Assembly (NCBI RefSeq): GCF_015709515.1
Contig: NZ_JADNQZ010000049.1
Span: 1 to 64,000 of the forward strand
Direction: 5' to 3'
DNA length: 64,000 bases
Source of the DNA: Methylocystis sp. H62
Lineage (GTDB): Bacteria > Pseudomonadota > Alphaproteobacteria > Rhizobiales > Beijerinckiaceae
Made by a program: the position numbers and the translations under genes. The notes under the pieces are model-generated. The model was not told where the DNA came from. It did no database searches and saw nothing but the letters and a program-made list of their open reading frames with translations. This document shows positions 28,781-36,979 of the stretch, one piece after another (position 1 is the stretch's first letter; every line of letters begins with the position of its first letter).

Positions 28781-28912
28781 AACGGTCTCTCAGCTTAAGG
28801 TCTTACACTTAGGATTCAGGTCTTGGCCTTAGCATGTCGCCGGAACGTCGTCTCGGGCAGACGCCGCCGTTGCGGCGCAACGGTCCTTCCTGTAGAAAAG
28901 CTCTGCGCCTGC

Positions 28913-28959
28913 GCCCGTAGCTCAGCTAGATAGAGCGCTGCCCTCCGAAGGCAGAGGCA
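28913..28959 (+). pseudogene. 5' half of a split tRNA-Arg(CCG)
   Basis: GCGCCCG acceptor strand, D-arm TAGCTCAGCTAGATAGAGC, and anticodon arm GCCCTCCGAAGGCAG with anticodon CCG are followed by AGG. The sequence then turns into island DNA. Joined to 36950-36979 it makes a perfect 77-base tRNA-Arg. Confidence 0.9.
28945..28959 (+). repeat. Left attachment core (attL)
   Basis: CTCCGAAGGCAGAGG, covering the anticodon loop and 3' anticodon stem of tRNA-Arg(CCG). The identical 15 bases occur at 36935-36949, flanking the island. Confidence 0.9.
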
Positions 28960-29050
28960 AGGTCTTTTTGCTGAATTTTGGCGTGTAAAAAATCGACTGA
29001 AAACAAATGCTTGGCGAAACTCGAAGGAAGCAGGAAATCCGCTCCCGAGG

Positions 29051-29071
29051 TCGCGGAAGCATCACGGAAGC
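29051..29071 (+). repeat. Direct repeat near the left island end
   Basis: TCGCGGAAGCATCACGGAAGC occurs here 92 bases inside the left core, with one mismatch to 36782-36802 near the right core. Each copy contains two CGGAAGC units 11 bases apart. Arm-type integrase binding sites are the simplest explanation. Confidence 0.5.
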
Positions 29072-29203
29072 AAACTGAAAGGAGGTTGTAGCGTACGAGT
29101 GGCGATGATCGGCACGGCTAAGGGGCTTGGGTCGTTTGCGCCTATTCGATCGTTGAATTCGGGATTGACCGTTTTCGATCTCGGAAACTATCTTCATATC
29201 GAT

Positions 29204-29280
29204 GCGCCCGTAGCTCAGCTGGATAGAGCGCCACCCTCCGAAGGTGGAGGCCACACGTTCGAATCGTGTCGGGCGCGCCA
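29204..29280 (+). tRNA. Complete tRNA-Arg(CCG) carried by the island
   Basis: A 77-base cloverleaf with encoded CCA. The acceptor is GCGCCCG/CGGGCGC, the anticodon arm CACCCTCCGAAGGTG, and the T-arm ACACG TTCGAAT CGTGT. The D-arm and acceptor are nearly the same as in the split host gene, but the anticodon stem and T-arm differ. It is therefore a distinct gene, not a recent duplicate. It lies 245 bases inside the left junction. Confidence 0.95.
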
Positions 29281-29618
29281 ACTCACTCAAGAGTGTCGGT
29301 TCTCACGAACGCTGACTCCTTTTCTCACGAATCGGACTCCTTTTTCCCAAACTCTTCGTTCGCAATAAGTCGGACTCGTCCATCTCAATAGGCCCGACTC
29401 TACGGCTTAGTCGATTGGAATCGTTGCTTCTACCGCGCCTTTCGCGCCTTAGCAGGCCACCTCGTAGCGCGTCATTGGCTCGCCGAAGGCCGAGATCTCG
29501 CTGATTGAGCGGGATGCGCGTCGGCCCATCCATTAGCGTTCGTAGCGGTGCAAAGAAATGAACGGCATCGGCAACATTGTCGGCTTGATCTAAGTTCGAA
29601 AACCGCTCACAGGGGTGT
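29281..29618. other. Intergenic stretch inside the island
   Basis: About 340 bases without a supportable gene. Two loosely repeated phrases (TCTCACGAA followed by GACTCCTTTT) occur at about 29300-29345. The promoter of the following gene should lie here. Confidence 0.4.
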
Positions 29619-30467
29619 ATGCCCCGCAGCAATCCCTACGCAGACATTGCACCAAGAACCGCTCTCGGACGCGCCTTGGTGGCGCACATCCGCCGGTTCC
29701 GACCGAACAAGCTAAAGCGACTAGGCTACCCTTCGATAGGCACGCTCGATACGATCGCTTCGAGGGCGACGAGAAGCGGGATGGGCACCAAGCTCTCCGT
29801 CGAATGCCGAGCGATGAGGCTGCTACTGATCCAGCCTTACTGCTACGCAGGGTTCAAGGAGCGCTTCTTAGCGGCGTATAATCGCGCCTTCCTTCTGGCT
29901 TGCCCCCTCTATGCCAGGATCGTGCGAGAAAGCCACAAGCTTTCAGGGGTCTCGTTTGACTATACACTGCCGCTCTTCGACCCTGCGCTCGTCCACGCCT
30001 TGGAGGAGGAGGCACCCTCGGACCCGACGATCGAGGCTTTCGTCAAGGACATCGTTAAGCGGCTTGACAAGACCAAGGGGTGGGTCGACACGCGGGCTTG
30101 GCGGCAGGCGTTCGAGATCTACTCAGAGGCGCTGATCTACAGGATGATCAGGGACGCTGGCAGGGGGAAAATCACGATCCGGCGGTTCCCGGAGGCGGAT
30201 GCCTCGACTCCGGACTTTATATGCGAACTGCTGACGTGCACGCCTCCGAAGACTTTCTACATCGAGGTGAAGACGTTCGACATCGTTGACGCCGATCAGC
30301 GACATGACGAGATGATCGACGAGGGCATCCTGACGCAGGACGACCTCGACAAGCACGTCGCCGCGGGTAAGCGCGTAGCGTGTCAAACGCCATTGAATCG
30401 GGACCCCAGTTTTTCATCCAAAAGGGACCCCTTTCCCGATGCGCATTTTCTGCCGTTGTTGGCGTGA
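29619..30467 (+). pseudogene. PD-(D/E)XK nuclease-like protein, C-terminus replaced by IS21
   Basis: The native frame runs from about 29619 to the IS21 end at 30381 (about 254 residues). It then reads into IS sequence (QTPLNRDPSF) until a stop at 30467. The segment TPDFICELL, followed 15 residues later by FYIEVKTFDI, has the Asp...Glu-x-Lys spacing of PD-(D/E)XK nucleases. The N-terminal 190 residues are helical with no recognised family. The native tail after VAAGKRVA is not found on the far side of the IS, so it has been deleted. Confidence 0.5.
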
Positions 30468-30512
30468 CGGAGGGAGGGCGTAGCCCGAACGGAGTTACGC
30501 CAACAACGGCAG
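30450..30512. terminator. Perfect 16-bp inverted repeat beyond istB
   Basis: CTGCCGTTGTTGGCGT at 30450-30465 pairs exactly with 30497-30512 across a 31-base loop. It lies between the istB stop and the element end. There is no T-run, so it may be an mRNA-protecting or blocking structure rather than a classic terminator. Confidence 0.45.
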
Positions 30513-30535
30513 CGGTCTGACCAATCGGGGCAGCG

Positions 30536-31267
30536 TCAGGCGCGGTTTTTGAAGCGCCAACTTTCGTTGCCGGTTTCGACAATGTCGCAATGATGGGTGA
30601 GGCGATCGAGCAGCGCGGTCGTCATCTTGGCGTCGCCGAAGACGCTCGGCCATTCGCCGAAGGCCAGATTGGTCGTGACGATCACCGAGGTGCGCTCATA
30701 AAGCCGGCTGACGAGATGGAACAGCAATTGGCCGCCGGCCTGCGCGAAGGGCAGATAGCCGAGTTCGTCGAGAACAACGAAGTCCATGCGGGTAAGATAA
30801 TCGGCGATGCGTCCCTGGCGCCCGGCGCGGGTCTCCGACTCCAGGCGGTTGACGAGGTCGACGGTGTTGAAGAAGCGCCCGCGCAGACCAGCGCGGATGC
30901 AACTGCGCGCAATGGCGATGGCCAGATGCGTCTTGCCGGTTCCCGTGCCGCCGACGAGAACGATATTGCGCTGCTGGGGGACGAAGCCGCCGCCGGCAAG
31001 ATCGCGCGCCAGAGTTTCGTTGACGGTCGCGCCGTCGAAGTCGAAGTCGTCGATGTCTTTGGCCAGAGGGAGCTTGGCGATGGTCATCTGATATTTGATG
31101 GAGCGCGCCTGCTTTTCGGCGACCTCGGCGTTGAGAAGATCGCCGACGATCTGCGGCGGCTCATGCTGTCGCTTGATGCCGGTCGTCATCACTTCATCGT
31201 AGGCGTTCCTCATGCCGTAGAGTTTGAGTTCGCCCATCAGATCGAAGATTTGCGTGCGCTCCATCAT
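30536..31267 (-). CDS. istB: IS21-family helper ATPase IstB
   Basis: The protein has 243 residues. The ATG at 31267 overlaps the istA stop (TGATG) and has AGGAG upstream, so the longer frame to 31303 is not used. It is a DnaA-like AAA+ ATPase with Walker [18 protein letters not shown], Walker [11 protein letters not shown], and the sensor-like [18 protein letters not shown]. It assembles on target DNA and stimulates the IstA transposase. Confidence 0.95.
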
Positions 31268-32766
31268 CAGCCTGAACTCCTCAGTTGATCGTATCTTGCG
31301 CAATCGGCCAGCGGGACATGCCTCAGCTTCAGGGCGTCCGGCGTGAGGATCGTCAGCGGCGGGCCGGGATCGCGGCGCCGTGCGAGGATGTTGAGAATGA
31401 CGTCGGCGGAATGCACGCCCTGATCCATTGCCTCGGCGCAGGCGGCTTCGACCGCCCGCAAGCCGTCGTCCAGAACCGCCGCGAGGATTTTCACCATTTG
31501 CCGGTCGCCGTCGGCGGAGCCCGCGAGCTTGCGCCGGATTTTCTCCATGGCCGACGGCAGCACCCAGTCCTTGAACGGCGCGCCGTTCCTCAACGCGCCG
31601 GGCTTACGGGCCAGAACCGACACGTAATGCCAGGGATCGTAAGCCGTCTCTTCGCGGCCGAAGCGGCGGCGATGTTCGCCAACGACAATCCCGTCCTGCC
31701 GGATGACGACGCGATCGGCGTAGGCGTGGAGTTCGACGGAGCGCCCGACAGCGCTCGCCTTGACCGAGTATTTGTTGTTGTCGAAGCGAACCAGGCAGGT
31801 CTTCGACACCGCTACGCTCACCGCGTGGAAGCCGTCGAAGCAACCGCGTAATGGAATGAGCTTTGGCCGCTCTTCCTCAAACGCCTCGAAGATCGTCTTG
31901 TCGACAATCTCGGGATGGCGATGCGCTTTGGCGTAGGCGACGCATTTGTCGATCAACCAGGCGTTCAACTCGTCATAGCTCTTGAACCGCAGACGCGGCG
32001 TGAAGAAGCGCTCGCGCACCAGTCCGACCTGATTTTCGACCTGTCCCTTCTCCCAGCCAGACGCCGGCGTGCAGGCGACGGGTTCGACAAGATAATGCCC
32101 GCACATCTGAAGGAAGCGCCGATTATATTGTCGCTCCTTGCCGATAAAAATCGTCTCCACCGCCGTCTTCATATTGTCGTAGATGCCGCGCTCGCACGCG
32201 CCTTTGAAGAAGGCGAAGCCGCGGTCATGCGCGTCGAACACCATCTCTTGCGTCTCGCGCGGATAGGCGCGCGCAAACAGCATGCGGCTGTGGCAGAGAC
32301 GCATATGCGCGACCTTCACCGTCACCGTCGCGCCGTTCAGCACGACGACTTCGTGGCTCCAGTCAAACTGATAGGCTTCGCCCGGCGCAAAGCTCAGCGG
32401 CACATAGGCCTGCGCCAACGCAGCGCCGCGCTCCTTGCGCCAGCCAATCGCGTAACGGCGAACCGCCGCATAGCTGCCTTCATAACCAAAGCCCCGCAGC
32501 TCTTCGAAAAGCCGCACATGCGTCAGCCGTTCGCGGGGCGCTTTCCCCTCGTTCTCCAGCAAAAGCGAATCCAGCCGCTCGCGCCAGGGACCGATCTTCG
32601 GAAGCGGCTGCGTCTCGCGTTCGTAACGGAACTCCGTCGCATCCGAACGGATGACCTTGCGCACGACCTTCCGCGACACATGCAGGTCCCGGCAAATCTC
32701 TTTGATCGGCTTCTTCTGGACAAAATAGGCGCGGCGTATCTTCGCAATCGTTTCCACAACAAGCAT
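31267..32766 (-). CDS. istA: IS21-family transposase IstA
   Basis: The protein has 499 residues. The N-terminal helix-turn-helix has [20 protein letters not shown]. The DDE domain follows with [28 protein letters not shown] and [14 protein letters not shown]. The C-terminal part is present in full. No frameshift is seen, so the element could be active. Two degenerate copies of the same family lie at 1.7-2.7 and 11.6 kb. Confidence 0.95.
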
Positions 32767-32827
32767 TCCAATCTCGGCCTCCCTTGCATCAGGAGGCCAG
32801 TGTGGACCCTTAGCTCCGGGGGCCCGA

Positions 32828-33436
32828 TTGGATGCAAATCATCCCCAAAGCGGGGTTCTTATTCCACGCAACTTCACAAACTGGCTACGCATTGGGGTGT
32901 GTTGGCTGGTTGAGAAGCGCTCGCTTCAAGCATGGCAAACTGCTGAAGCCTTGCTTTCGATTTTGTTCCCCGAAGGCAAAAGCGCCTCGCGCTTAGCCAT
33001 CCGTGCGATCCAGAAGGGTAAATCCACGGAGTTTCGATTGGCGGTCGCAATGACCGGGCTCGCCCACGAATTGGTCAGCGCAGCCCAGGAAGACAGAGAC
33101 CGAGAGCGCCAGATTTCTGCAGGCCTGCGTGATCGACTTGCCGAGACGCGGTCAAAGCTTGAACGACTTCAAGCGGAGCTTACGCTGTCAAAGAGAGAGC
33201 TAGAGCAACGTATCTTCAAACTGGCTGAAGTTGAAACAACGCTCGCCGCCGAACGCCAGCACTGGGGTCACGACCTCTCAGAAGCCAAGGCCGGACAAAG
33301 GGTGCTTCTTAGTGAACGAATCGGACCGCTGCTGCAAGACGCAGTGGACGCGTTAGAGATCGAACCATCCGCTCCCAGCCTTGCATTGAAGCGGATGAAA
33401 GCCGTTCTGTCCATTATTGAAGAGGCCAAAACGTGA
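32828..33436 (+). CDS. Coiled-coil protein upstream of the Hsp70-like gene, N-terminus altered by IS21
   Basis: The frame is open from within the IS21 end. The native N-terminus is lost or uncertain (TTG at 32828, or an internal ATG at 33050). Residues about 85-160 form a strong coiled coil (RDRLAETRSKLERLQAELTL and the following heptads), then ERIGPLLQDAVDALE. Long helix plus short C-terminal unit and position before an Hsp70 gene suggest a GrpE-like partner, but no GrpE signature is certain. The stop overlaps the next start by four bases (GTGA). Confidence 0.6.
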   Translation: MDANHPQSGVLIPRNFTNWLRIGVCWLVEKRSLQAWQTAEALLSILFPEGKSASRLAIRAIQKGKSTEFRLAVAMTGLAHELVSAAQEDRDRERQISAGLRDRLAETRSKLERLQAELTLSKRELEQRIFKLAEVETTLAAERQHWGHDLSEAKAGQRVLLSERIGPLLQDAVDALEIEPSAPSLALKRMKAVLSIIEEAKT

Positions 33437-35337
33437 AGGACGTTGTCTTTGGAATAGATTTTGGCACCACAAATAGCCTAGCTGCCGTGACAGTCGGAGG
33501 GCGAGCGTTGACCTTGGTCGATCAGGTGACTTTGCGACCTCACCCGTCAGTTATCTGGTACCGCGGTGGTGACATAGTGGTCGGTCGCGAAGCCAGGCAG
33601 AACATGGATCTGACCGAGGCCGGTGCGCCTCCGGGATTCGTTCGTTCGCCTAAAATGTCATTGAGGCGCGACGGCCCTATCTTTGTTGACGGTCGACTTA
33701 TTGAACCGACCGACGCTGTCGCTGAAGTTCTGAAGCATCTCAAGAATGATGCCGCGGGCGCGCGAGGATCAGCCTCTGGTAAGAACCTGACGCGCGCCGT
33801 CTTTACCATTCCTGTCGACTTTGGTGGCCCAGAAAGACGAGCGCTACGACAAGCCGCAAGAAAGGCCGGCATCGGTGTTGTGCAATTTGTGCATGAGCCC
33901 GTTGCAGCGCTTTATGCCTATCTTCGTTTGAGGCCTGATCTGGGCCGCGAGCTTGCACGCCTGGAAGGACGCTCAGTGCTTGTTTTCGACTGGGGCGGAG
34001 GCACTCTGGACCTGACCCTCTGCCGAATTCAAGGGGGGGCCATTATGCAATTGGCGAACCTCGGCGATAACGAAGTCGGCGGCGATAGGTTCGATGAGCG
34101 CCTCCGAAATCACCTAAGATCCAAGCATGCGACAGCTCATGGCATTGAGGATATTACTGCCCTCGAGCAACCAGGCATGGCCGCGAAACTGTTGCATCAG
34201 TGCGAAATACTCAAGATCCAATTGTCTAATCCAAAGACAGATAGCGAGGAGGTGATCGTCCGGAACTATCTCAAGATGGACGGACCCAGTAAGAATCTCT
34301 TGCAGTCAATTAGTCGCGACGAACTTGATAGCCTAAGTTCTAGTATCGTGGCGAAGGGCTTGGCGAGAATCGACGAAATTCTTGGGCAAGCGCATCTTAC
34401 CTACCAGGATATTGAGCTGTGTCTCGCCACCGGTGGGATGGTCAATATGCCTGCCATCCGTAATGGTCTGACAGAGCGCTTCATCGGAAGAGTCCCGAAA
34501 CTCGACAATGGAGACCGAATTATTGCCGAAGGTGCGGCTTGGATTGCCAACGATGGGCTTCGTCTCACACTCTCGAAGCCGATTGAAATTCTGGTCGCAG
34601 ATACATCTGGGCGGGGGACTTACCATTCCCTTGTCGATGCAGGCTGGACGCTGCCCCTCGAGAACGAAACACAGAACGTGGCCAATACACGCCTCTTCTG
34701 CATTGACCCGCGAGAAGGAAAGGCCGTCGTCGAGGTAGCAAAGCCTGCAAAGCTCGGAAAGGTACTACCCAGCGACCCACGGCGGACACTTTGTATTGCG
34801 AAAGTCGAGGTTGATGCAAACGCGCAGCCACTCCTTGAGCGGATCGAATGTCACCTGCAGATCGATCACGATTATATCGCACGTGTCACACTCCGGTCGA
34901 CAGGGCGTGGAGCTAGCACTTGTGAAGAATTTCATGATCTTGAGTTTGGACTTTCCCTCGCCGGAGTCGCTCCACCGGGTGTCAGCACAGATGAGGGAAA
35001 GGCCGGGTCTCTTCGCGGTCCGGCGGGAGAAGCACGGGCTCTCGCAAACAGCAATTTGCTCCAGCGCACAAACGTTGCCCGATACGACGAGCGGAATAGC
35101 TCTGATGGGGAGGCTTGGAGATATGTTCCGGGAGATTTAGTCGCAAAATGGCGCTCCGGTTACTTTGACACGAGGAACGGTGCTGCATCAGGCAGACAAC
35201 TTGAGGAACGAAATTTCTACGTTCCCTGCGCCCGCTGCAAGCGAAAGACAGATAAAAGCCGAGGGGCCTGTCATTGGCTGCAGCGGCGCGTGTGGTGCCC
35301 GGACTTACCCCGCCAGCCCATCGGTGCACGATGCTGA
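33433..35337 (+). CDS. Divergent Hsp70/DnaK-like ATPase
   Basis: The protein has 634 residues from a GTG start overlapping the previous gene. The nucleotide-binding domain is clear: GIDFGTTNSLAAV (phosphate 1), FVHEPVAALYAYL, VFDWGGGTLDLTLCR (phosphate 2), and CLATGGMVNMPAIRNGL (adenosine site). The part after residue 380 does not look like the DnaK substrate domain. Near the end CARCKRK suggests half of a zinc ribbon. A second half (IGCSGACGARTYP) lies in another frame, so a frameshift near 35245 is possible. Base composition is lower in GC than core genes. Island Hsp70s of this kind are suspected defence components; the role here is unknown. Confidence 0.8.
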   Translation: MKDVVFGIDFGTTNSLAAVTVGGRALTLVDQVTLRPHPSVIWYRGGDIVVGREARQNMDLTEAGAPPGFVRSPKMSLRRDGPIFVDGRLIEPTDAVAEVLKHLKNDAAGARGSASGKNLTRAVFTIPVDFGGPERRALRQAARKAGIGVVQFVHEPVAALYAYLRLRPDLGRELARLEGRSVLVFDWGGGTLDLTLCRIQGGAIMQLANLGDNEVGGDRFDERLRNHLRSKHATAHGIEDITALEQPGMAAKLLHQCEILKIQLSNPKTDSEEVIVRNYLKMDGPSKNLLQSISRDELDSLSSSIVAKGLARIDEILGQAHLTYQDIELCLATGGMVNMPAIRNGLTERFIGRVPKLDNGDRIIAEGAAWIANDGLRLTLSKPIEILVADTSGRGTYHSLVDAGWTLPLENETQNVANTRLFCIDPREGKAVVEVAKPAKLGKVLPSDPRRTLCIAKVEVDANAQPLLERIECHLQIDHDYIARVTLRSTGRGASTCEEFHDLEFGLSLAGVAPPGVSTDEGKAGSLRGPAGEARALANSNLLQRTNVARYDERNSSDGEAWRYVPGDLVAKWRSGYFDTRNGAASGRQLEERNFYVPCARCKRKTDKSRGACHWLQRRVWCPDLPRQPIGARC

Positions 35338-35399
35338 TGGTCGTCAGGCATGATCTGCAGAGGACGTGATTTGGAAGCGCTTTGTCCACAATGCTTAGT

Positions 35400-36749
35400 C
35401 TATGCCGCCATATCGTCTTCCGTGCGCGGTCGCTCGTCAGCGGCTTTTTCTAAGAATCGGTTTAGAGCAACCTTCCTGGAAGCCCGATCGAGCGAATAGG
35501 CAGTCTGCTTGAACTCCTTGCCGTCCAGCAGGCCCTGGATGTAGCCGGCAATCGCGTCCGCGGCCATGATCAGGGCTGTGTCGAGCGGATGGATGTATTT
35601 GCTTGTAACCGTGCCTCTCGAATGGCCAACCAGCGCCGCGATCGTGACCTCGGTGAACCCGAGATCGTTAGCGATGCTGGCGAAGCTGTGCCGCAGGGCG
35701 TGCGGAGTCACATCTGCGAGCGGCGATTTCCGAAAAATCTGCTTCCAATGGTTCGGGAAGCTGCCGAAGGCGTTGTCGTCGCCTGATCCGGGAAACACAT
35801 AGGTTTCTGCGTGGCTGTTCCTGTGCGCTTCTAGAGTCTCAATCACAGGGAGCCCGATGGGACGTATCGAGTCGCCCTCCTTGCTGTCGGTAAGTCGCAG
35901 GCAGCTTCCATCGATATGGGCTTCGCTCCATTTGAGACCGACGATCTCACTTCGGCGGCAGCCGGTCAGGGCGATCAGACGAATGATCTCGACCGCGATT
36001 ACATATTTGTCGTTCCGGGACGCGTTCCGAAGCATTTCTCCAAGGATGCGATATTCGGCTTCCGTGAGGCGGCGGGTTCGCACATTGTCCTTCGGCTTTC
36101 GAACGCCATGGGCTGGATTGCGCTCGATGATCCCGGATTCGACAGCATAGGTGAGAATGCCGCCCAGCAGCCCGACGGTGCGTGTCGCAGTGCCGGGGCC
36201 GCCCCGCACGATCGCCTTGCCCCGTAGTTTCTTCGTCTTGACGGAAGCGCGCGTCAGCCCCGCCATGATGTCCTTTAGAACCTTGTTGATGTCGGCCTTT
36301 GTGAGGTCCTTGACGCGCCGGGTGCCGATGAGCGGGATGATGTGTCGGTGAATACGGCCAGTGTCGGTGCCGATCGTAGTCGGCTTCTTCGGGCGACCGC
36401 CTTTGCCGAGGATCAATCCGGCTTCCAGATCGCGCAAATACAACGCGCAAAGCTCCTTGACCGTGATCGCCTTGTGATCGAGCTGCCGCTCTTCCGCAGG
36501 GTTGCCGCCTTTGGCGATGTGGCCGAGTTGAATCTTGGCTTCCTGGCGGGCCGCTTCCGGTGTCCATACCCCGTGCAGGCCGATAGTGTAGCGACGCGTT
36601 CGGCCACCGGCACGATACTGGAGAAGGTAACTCCGCTTGCCCGAGGTGAACATGCGCAGGCCGAAACCTGGAAGCTCGTCGTCCCAGATGAAATAATCCC
36701 TGTCGCGACTAACCGCAGCGTCGACGACTCTCTTGGTCAGCTTGGCCAT
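35400..36749 (-). CDS. Tyrosine recombinase (island integrase)
   Basis: The protein has 449 residues. The N-terminus is the DUF4102-type arm-binding domain (TKRVVDAAVSRDRDYFIWDD, LPGFGLRMFTSGKRSYLLQY). A SAM-like core-binding region follows. The catalytic domain has Arg in LTGCRRSEIVGLKW, HALRHSFASIANDLG, LVGHSRGTVTSKY with the final Tyr. All catalytic residues are present. It sits 186 bases from attR, as expected for the enzyme that inserted the island in tRNA-Arg. Confidence 0.95.
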   Translation of the reverse strand: MAKLTKRVVDAAVSRDRDYFIWDDELPGFGLRMFTSGKRSYLLQYRAGGRTRRYTIGLHGVWTPEAARQEAKIQLGHIAKGGNPAEERQLDHKAITVKELCALYLRDLEAGLILGKGGRPKKPTTIGTDTGRIHRHIIPLIGTRRVKDLTKADINKVLKDIMAGLTRASVKTKKLRGKAIVRGGPGTATRTVGLLGGILTYAVESGIIERNPAHGVRKPKDNVRTRRLTEAEYRILGEMLRNASRNDKYVIAVEIIRLIALTGCRRSEIVGLKWSEAHIDGSCLRLTDSKEGDSIRPIGLPVIETLEAHRNSHAETYVFPGSGDDNAFGSFPNHWKQIFRKSPLADVTPHALRHSFASIANDLGFTEVTIAALVGHSRGTVTSKYIHPLDTALIMAADAIAGYIQGLLDGKEFKQTAYSLDRASRKVALNRFLEKAADERPRTEDDMAA

Positions 36750-36781
36750 AAAGCGCTTCCGGAATGATTCCTACCCTGCGT

Positions 36782-36802
36782 TCGCGGAAGCACCACGGAA
36801 GC
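36782..36802 (+). repeat. Direct repeat near the right island end
   Basis: TCGCGGAAGCACCACGGAAGC, 20 of 21 identical to 29051-29071 and in the same orientation. It lies between the integrase start and attR. It is likely an arm site or part of the integrase promoter region. Confidence 0.5.
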
Positions 36803-36934
36803 GGGCCGAAGGAAAATCTCGGTTGGTGCAGCGTGCTCTCGGCGATGGTCTAATTCAAGAAAAACTAGCAGTCGTAGTATGTTAGAGGAGCTTTTCGTAT
36901 CGCCGGATACCGCAGCGAGAGGCAGGTTAAATAA

Positions 36935-36979
36935 CTCCGAAGGCAGAGGTCAGGGGTTCGAATCCCTTCGGGCGCGCCA
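36935..36979 (+). pseudogene. 3' half of the split tRNA-Arg(CCG), with attR core
   Basis: The 15-base core CTCCGAAGGCAGAGG (36935-36949) is followed by TC, the T-arm AGGGG TTCGAAT CCCTT, CGGGCGC, G and CCA. Appended to 28913-28959 it restores a full tRNA-Arg. Alone it lacks the D-arm and 5' acceptor strand. Confidence 0.9.

Follow-up and report, generated by a model that had tools for sequence, protein, structure and literature searches.

A genomic island of Methylocystis sp. H62 that splits a tRNA-Arg(CCG) gene and carries a complete gene of the same isotype

To date, the breaking of a host tRNA gene by an element that brings a substitute has been described for phages, among them the actinobacteriophages with tRNA-dependent lysogeny (Fionnbharth, LeBron, Gaia, and others; Guerrero-Bustamante and Hatfull 2024, PMC10865867). 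Experiments with mycobacteriophages described in that work show that the carried tRNA is needed, and its Table 2 gives Lys, Ile2, and Leu as the tRNA targets that are not rebuilt, Arg not being among them. The same work describes the relation of replacing to rebuilding systems as unclear and the prevalence beyond actinobacteriophages as needing study. As described in PMC11476347 and PMC12429752, the Lo5R7ANS-like prophages of Sinorhizobium meliloti break a tRNA-Leu(UAG) gene and replace it. The Lj965 prophage of Lactobacillus johnsonii is a possible case, in which the junction tRNA is not rebuilt and the cognate tRNA is encoded (cited in PMC10865867). Here, a stretch of 64,000 nt from the forward strand of Methylocystis sp. 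H62 contig NZ_JADNQZ010000049.1 (the window) is analyzed. It holds an island of about 8 kb that breaks the host tRNA-Arg(CCG) gene in the anticodon region and carries a complete tRNA-Arg(CCG) gene inside its left end.

The locus is explained with high confidence as a genomic island using tRNA-dependent integration, in which the carried tRNA replaces the broken one. The tyrosine integrase would recombine a short core of the attachment site of the element (attP; about 10–15 bases) with the anticodon region of the host gene. Because the element lacks the rest of the tRNA next to the core, the host gene is split and dead at both junctions. The complete tRNA-Arg(CCG) gene inside the left end would take over the decoding of CGG, so that cells survive integration, and precise excision would rejoin the host gene. 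The sequences themselves show the split, the lack of repair, the replacement gene and its status as the sole intact CCG copy found in this genome, the intact sites of relatives, and the recurrence of the arrangement in many genomes. We infer that the replacement tRNA is expressed and needed for survival, and likewise the position of strand exchange.

The Split Host Gene and the Carried tRNA

The two copies of the core, CTCCGAAGGCAGAGG, are 15 bases long, lie 7,992 bp apart (core to core), and start at 28943 and 36935, the sole positions of this sequence on the + strand of the window (Table 1). The part in common at the left junction is shorter in many relatives, at about 10 bases (CTCCGAAGGC). 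When the host halves are rejoined, ARAGORN reads a 77-base tRNA-Arg(CCG). At the left junction, CAAGGTCTT directly follows the core and the target gene is not restored; ARAGORN finds a tRNA at neither junction, so the gene is rebuilt at neither, and the regeneration of the target typical of Islander-type islands is absent. An earlier note, made from the sequence alone, had claimed that the island splits the gene, fails to restore it, and supplies a separate full gene, and the ARAGORN readings of the junctions, of the join, and of 29204–29280 bear this out. Two details of that note needed correction: the halves and their 15-base overlap stand, but the 5′ half starts at 28911, two bases before the position first given, and the rejoined 77-base tRNA, although read by ARAGORN, is not quite "perfect", since it has an A at position 18. 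The other 66 of the 67 5′ halves in the split class and all 80 of 80 complete copies have G there; this class (n = 67) counts the second copies in G158 and G207, which are complete genes truncated at contig ends, and omits G159, G176, and G185, whose 5′ halves miss the search pattern. Position 18 is a G in nearly all tRNAs, and this base makes contact with the T loop. Since the window half has A18, the rejoined host gene may be a poor tRNA.

Table 1. Coordinates of the features at the island locus, in positions of the window.
Feature	Position	Strand	Basis or remark
attL, host tRNA-Arg(CCG) 5′ half through the end of the shared core	28911..28957	+	carries G18A
Left 15-base core copy, CTCCGAAGGCAGAGG	28943..28957	+	
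Left arm-type repeat pair (GCGGAAGCA-N4-CGGAAGC form)	29044..29071	+	repeat search; related repeats in relatives
Likely promoter of the island tRNA: TTGACC, 17 bases, CTATCT	29165..29193	+	second reading: spacer 18, TATCTT
Complete island-borne tRNA-Arg(CCG), replacement gene	29204..29280	+	ARAGORN; RF00005 67.4 bits
Cargo open reading frame (ORF), 282 aa, adjoining the IS21 genes	29619..30467	+	
IstB, IS21-type helper ATPase	30536..31303	-	
IstA, IS21-type transposase	31267..32766	-	
Cargo ORF, 202 aa	32828..33436	+	weak DjlA match, 20.6 bits, far below cut-off
Cargo ORF, 634 aa, Hsp70-like	33433..35337	+	
Tyrosine integrase, 449 aa, N-terminal arm DNA-binding domain	35400..36749	-	Pfam Phage_integrase + Arm-DNA-bind_3
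Right arm-type repeat pair	36775..36802	+	repeat search
attR, core + host tRNA-Arg(CCG) 3′ half	36935..36979	+	

Measured from the left junction, the carried tRNA starts 246 bases into the island. Its sequence and that of the rejoined host gene disagree at 12 of the 77 positions, and its isotype is that of the broken gene, tRNA-Arg(CCG). Among 61 genomes with a pair of split and complete genes (56 named ones and five of the family, including that of the window), 20 distinct carried sequences occur. Their cloverleaf pairs are standard in 420 of 420 cells, and eight of the 21 pairs covary, with both sides changed; when the partners were shuffled, the mean number of non-standard cells was 47 and never fell below 36. 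The carried tRNAs thus covary like working genes and look functional. Two layouts exist among these islands: 45 have long leaders (281–312 bp) and 16 have short leaders (165–209 bp). A TTGAC box lies at −35 distance in 44 of the 45 long-leader islands, and the sigma-70-like promoter in Table 1 belongs to this subtype, the window included. In most short-leader islands, the tRNA begins directly after the arm sites.

The island copy is the sole intact tRNA-Arg(CCG) gene found in the window genome, a draft of 4,540,521 bases in 59 contigs. RF00005 gives 46 matches, namely 45 with anticodons read and the broken left half, and the Arg anticodons are TCT, TCG, ACG, CCT, and one intact CCG, that of the island. 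In all five same-genus genomes, the stretch fetched contains one intact CCG tRNA and no second copy; in four of the five, this gene lies at the syntenic site, beside the same methyltransferase (69–86% protein identity) and pgi (76–90%). It is therefore very likely that the site was once empty and that the island brought the second tRNA along. Both results, the lack of a further intact CCG gene among the 46 matches of the draft and the single gene of the relatives, agree with the view of the earlier note that the island brought its own replacement. The record of Gluconacetobacter diazotrophicus PA1 5, a single sequence of 3.9 Mb titled complete, gives 49 tRNA matches, in which the Arg anticodons are TCT, ACG, and one CCG. 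This sole CCG gene is the island copy, 282 bp inside the split 5′ half, and a TCG tRNA was not found among the 49 matches. Under standard decoding rules, nothing but the island tRNA should therefore read CGG in this strain.

Recurrence Among Related Genomes

In a Beijerinckiaceae sample, 50 of 149 genomes have an integrase match at E ≤ 1e-30. Nine family genomes besides that of the window encode an integrase with at least 77% identity. Seven of them (G005, G035, G082, G088, G092, G123, and G064) show the broken half followed by the complete tRNA; the remaining two are G056, which rebuilds the gene and adds a tRNA, and G055, with its element at another site. A scan of 84,980 species yielded 303 integrase relatives, the best 80 of which were used, all with at least 76% identity; 79 of these 80 were placed in 78 searchable genomes, some of which are family assemblies (L180 was left out). 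A split 5′ half with a complete tRNA-Arg(CCG) gene 165–312 bp further in is present in 56 of the 78. Six more pairs lie at contig ends (G158 and G207), have diverged 5′ halves (G159, G176, and G185), or stand on a later-fetched contig (G198), so that 62 of the 78 genomes contain both the split half and the complete tRNA. Outside the 78, the pair occurs in the window, in four other family genomes, and in G268 (70% identity). According to the record titles, the 56 genomes comprise 34 Hyphomicrobiales, 11 Sphingomonadales, three Rhodobacterales, three Acetobacterales, one Caulobacterales, one Rhodospirillales, and three without a named order. Upstream of the integrase, the core is found in 81 of 84 related loci and is followed by the tRNA 3′ half in 72 of 84.

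A class-wide sample of 385 genomes added three at E ≤ 1e-130: G365 (80% identity, with the same coordinates as the named G166), G268, and G490 (51% identity), which has one complete CCG tRNA at its sole close match. Similar integrases (74–79%) are encoded on three Bradyrhizobium plasmids. On the conjugative plasmid pBs162S2a of Bradyrhizobium septentrionale (L354), a 78% identical integrase has a tRNA-Arg 3′ half to its right, with an IS66 element in between. The right junction of a more distant relative (60%) on an A. tumefaciens plasmid is not a tRNA, and four records of virus collections with a related integrase (L225–L228) gave no tRNA pattern match. Some elements depart from the usual site or form. 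That of G055 appears to lie at a non-tRNA site on contig C3, where the right-junction core lacks the 3′ half, and a complete CCG tRNA of this genome is on C1. At L239, L233, L311, and L312, the right arm is joined straight to the left arm in an attP-like junction, which suggests tandem islands or circular forms. Contig C93 of G219 (L275) has two split 5′ halves 166 bp apart and a single complete tRNA after them, which resembles a duplication of the left end. A record titled Streptomyces sp. AcH 505 (L200) contains a 77% identical integrase with an alphaproteobacterial-type island tRNA and is probably a contamination.

A quick tree of 99 integrases, which has several long outer branches, places every classified replacing member in a single set with a support of 96; 25 of the 86 rows in this set are unclassified. 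The outermost member of this set is G268 (70% identity), a genome with the pair. Outside it are G084 and G014 (both 60%) and G100 (49%), each with a complete tRNA that is presumed, from position or pattern, to be the left end of its island.

Alternative Readings of the Carried tRNA

Several observations weigh against a simple replacement of the broken gene. The core is too short to rebuild a tRNA at either junction (15 bases, ARAGORN negative), and yet RF00005 (Rfam) gives the left junction, 28911–28985, a weak score of 29.3 bits at a cut-off of 29. The pair was not shown in 16 of the 78 genomes, which include drafts, tandem or attP-like junctions, other sites, and cases with no pattern match. 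Four of these (G164, G188, G194, and G204) gave no pattern match at all, four (G149, G156, G163, and G190) have junctions that look attP-like, tandem, or non-tRNA, one (G203) is cut by a contig end, six (G161, G171, G206, G209, G212, and G226) are unclassified, and the last is G178, the same assembly as G056. G178 lies inside the replacing set of the tree, but its attL is rebuilt and a second complete tRNA is present 437 bp further in, where the simple model needs none; it could be a bridge between rebuilding and replacing members, or a recombinant. Additional matches to the CCG 5′-half pattern occur in 12 of the 56 pair genomes. The TTGAC box is absent from 15 of the 16 short-leader islands, which might instead be transcribed from the promoter of the host gene that they disrupt. 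In the window genome, tRNA-Ile(GAT) and tRNA-Ala(TGC), which are usually located in rRNA operons, are missing from the tRNA list. The draft is thus incomplete for tRNAs, and a further CCG gene is conceivable. Finally, this genome has a tRNA-Arg(TCG), which might decode CGG by wobble, so loss of the CCG tRNA might be tolerated, and essentiality is less certain in this genome.

The earlier note had read the carried gene as an addiction-like retention strategy, in which loss of the island removes the sole tRNA-Arg(CCG) and the host is held hostage. That the island copy is the only intact CCG gene found in the window genome agrees with this reading, and so do the changed host halves, i.e., G18A in the window and the halves of Rhodoblastus sp. 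SSC7 (G185), each of which is short of one base. As a general statement, however, retention finds little support in the results and is improbable. When the host halves were joined, ARAGORN read a tRNA-Arg(CCG) for 54 of 59 genomes, among them that of the window, despite its A18. In the remaining five, the right junction is attP-like (G172, G187, and G201) or cut by a contig end (G202), or attR was not found (G214); genomes without both halves (G136, G144, G173b, G183, and G203, which have no attR) were left out, and in genomes with more than one left end, such as G200, the joined halves possibly come from different islands. Precise excision should thus restore the host gene, which fits compensation for the harm of integration rather than a hostage strategy. 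Even for G185, ARAGORN reads the join as a tRNA, which has 75 bases and a weakened T stem, and one of the two base losses may be a homopolymer error. In addition, the integrase frame of the window is open, and a changed position 18 in the host half is rare (1 of 67). The carried tRNA is better read as making integration survivable, a role that experiments have demonstrated in mycobacteriophages (PMC10865867). Dependence may nevertheless be real in the window genome, because its host half lacks the conserved G18; this host is possibly locked in and dependent on the island for good.

Less probable still is a different role of the carried tRNA, for instance in supplying codons to the cargo genes or in resisting tRNA-cutting defenses, with its match to the broken gene being secondary. 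Phage tRNAs that counter tRNA-degrading defenses are among the subjects discussed in PMC10865867, and in G178, where the gene is already rebuilt at attL, a further tRNA is carried. Against this, the isotype is that of the broken gene and the tRNA adjoins attL in 62 of the 78 genomes, and a third match to the CCG 5′-half pattern is absent from 44 of the 56 pair genomes that were read directly. Three relatives with a rebuilt tRNA have one match (G084 and G100) or two (G014). The cargo varies while the tRNA is constant: besides the integrase, no family of ORFs occurs in more than 18 loci. Chance or an assembly artifact, i.e., a native second tRNA beside an unrelated island or a misassembly of the 59-contig draft, is hardly credible, because the entire structure lies within one contig of 144,892 bases, the arrangement recurs with narrow spacing classes in more than 60 genomes, which rules out an assembly error, and the same-genus relatives hold one copy (5/5 without a second in the stretch fetched), which rules out a native second gene or a duplication.

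A more far-reaching reading is put forward tentatively, namely that, across orders and even across classes, this island family drives the lasting exchange of a native tRNA gene for a foreign gene. Integration would break the native tRNA-Arg(CCG), the island copy would take over, and the idle host halves would decay, as G18A in the window and both halves of SSC7 may illustrate; in the end, the island would be lost and its tRNA would stay. A family genome, G126, may be a fossil of such a finished replacement, with decayed arm sites upstream of the tRNA. The 44 tRNA matches of this genome include just one CCG gene (contig C1 near 55304; L388 / L436), and the 70 bases before this gene align with short-leader arms with a score of 44, compared with a mean of 18.9 and a maximum of 36 for shuffled sequences and 17–22 for ten native upstream regions. 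The 10 kb that were read contain no split half, and the search for related integrases gave no match at E ≤ 1e-30. When its tRNA region was compared at the DNA level with those of three genus-mates, only the tRNA itself aligned. A candidate for a class jump is G159, a Burkholderiales bin by its record title (contig C12; L385), in which a native-type tRNA is split and an alphaproteobacterial-type tRNA lies inside. The rejoined native stretch is intact in 10 of 30 relatives (nine without mismatch) and not in G159; as G159 is a bin, mis-binning is possible.

Island Contents and Comparison with Known Systems

The integrase starts 186 bases from attR. Repeat pairs of the GCGGAAGCA type flank the would-be attP on both sides and are likely arm sites of the integrase. 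Four ORFs of the island were scanned further: PHROGs matched the integrase and the Hsp70-like ORF only, and the PADLOC defense models gave no match. The 282-aa ORF has no family match in Pfam, NCBIfam, PADLOC, or PHROGs. A 19-base inverted repeat (30450–30468 / 30494–30512) is located on the border between this ORF and the istA/istB pair, and the 202-aa and Hsp70-like ORFs overlap by four bases, possibly forming a two-gene cargo. A common cargo function was rejected on the family counts given above, which cover, for the named loci, the ORFs that lie downstream of the integrase.

Like the actinobacteriophages of PMC10865867, the island uses a tyrosine integrase and an attachment site (attB) in a host tRNA gene, does not rebuild the tRNA, and carries a tRNA of the same isotype. 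A short common core is a further shared feature (8–17 bp for the phages classed there as dependent), and related elements that rebuild the tRNA exist in both groups. Unlike those phages, it is an island without recognized phage structural genes among the four ORFs scanned, and its family is found mainly in Alphaproteobacteria. Its target is tRNA-Arg(CCG), and the carried tRNA lies next to attL at an almost constant position, either with a conserved promoter box or immediately behind the arm sites. The island integrase has less than 60% identity to each of the 484 phage records that it matched. A phage carrier was rejected on this figure and the PHROGs result, and the temperate-phage carrier that defines tRNA-dependent lysogeny was accordingly not found. 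The Lo5R7ANS-like elements are likewise alphaproteobacterial and carry a same-isotype tRNA, which resembles that of another species (PMC11476347, PMC12429752); they differ from the island in being prophages, in the isotype, and in being named in two strains (PMC11476347). Lj965 is also a prophage, and its host belongs to a different phylum. Islander-type tRNA islands, as described in PMC4383910, share the tyrosine integrase, the tRNA target, and the direct repeats at the ends, but they rebuild the target at one junction, whereas the window island does not.

These features have wider implications. With a replacing set, rebuilding relatives just outside it, and one member that does both, the integrase family bears on the evolutionary relation between the two kinds of system and on the prevalence of replacing systems outside actinobacteriophages, both raised in PMC10865867. 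It also offers a route for swapping a housekeeping tRNA gene between distant bacteria, and it warns that the sole copy of a tRNA gene in a genome may sit on a mobile island otherwise deemed dispensable. No non-phage island family replacing tRNA-Arg(CCG) was found in the open-access literature among the matches listed. The island works like tRNA-dependent lysogeny but is not lysogeny, because PHROGs recognized only the integrase and the Hsp70-like ORF, the integrase is less than 60% identical to those of phages, and relatives reside on plasmids. The principle is already published for phages; new here are its use by a family of non-phage islands, the target, and the fixed layout.

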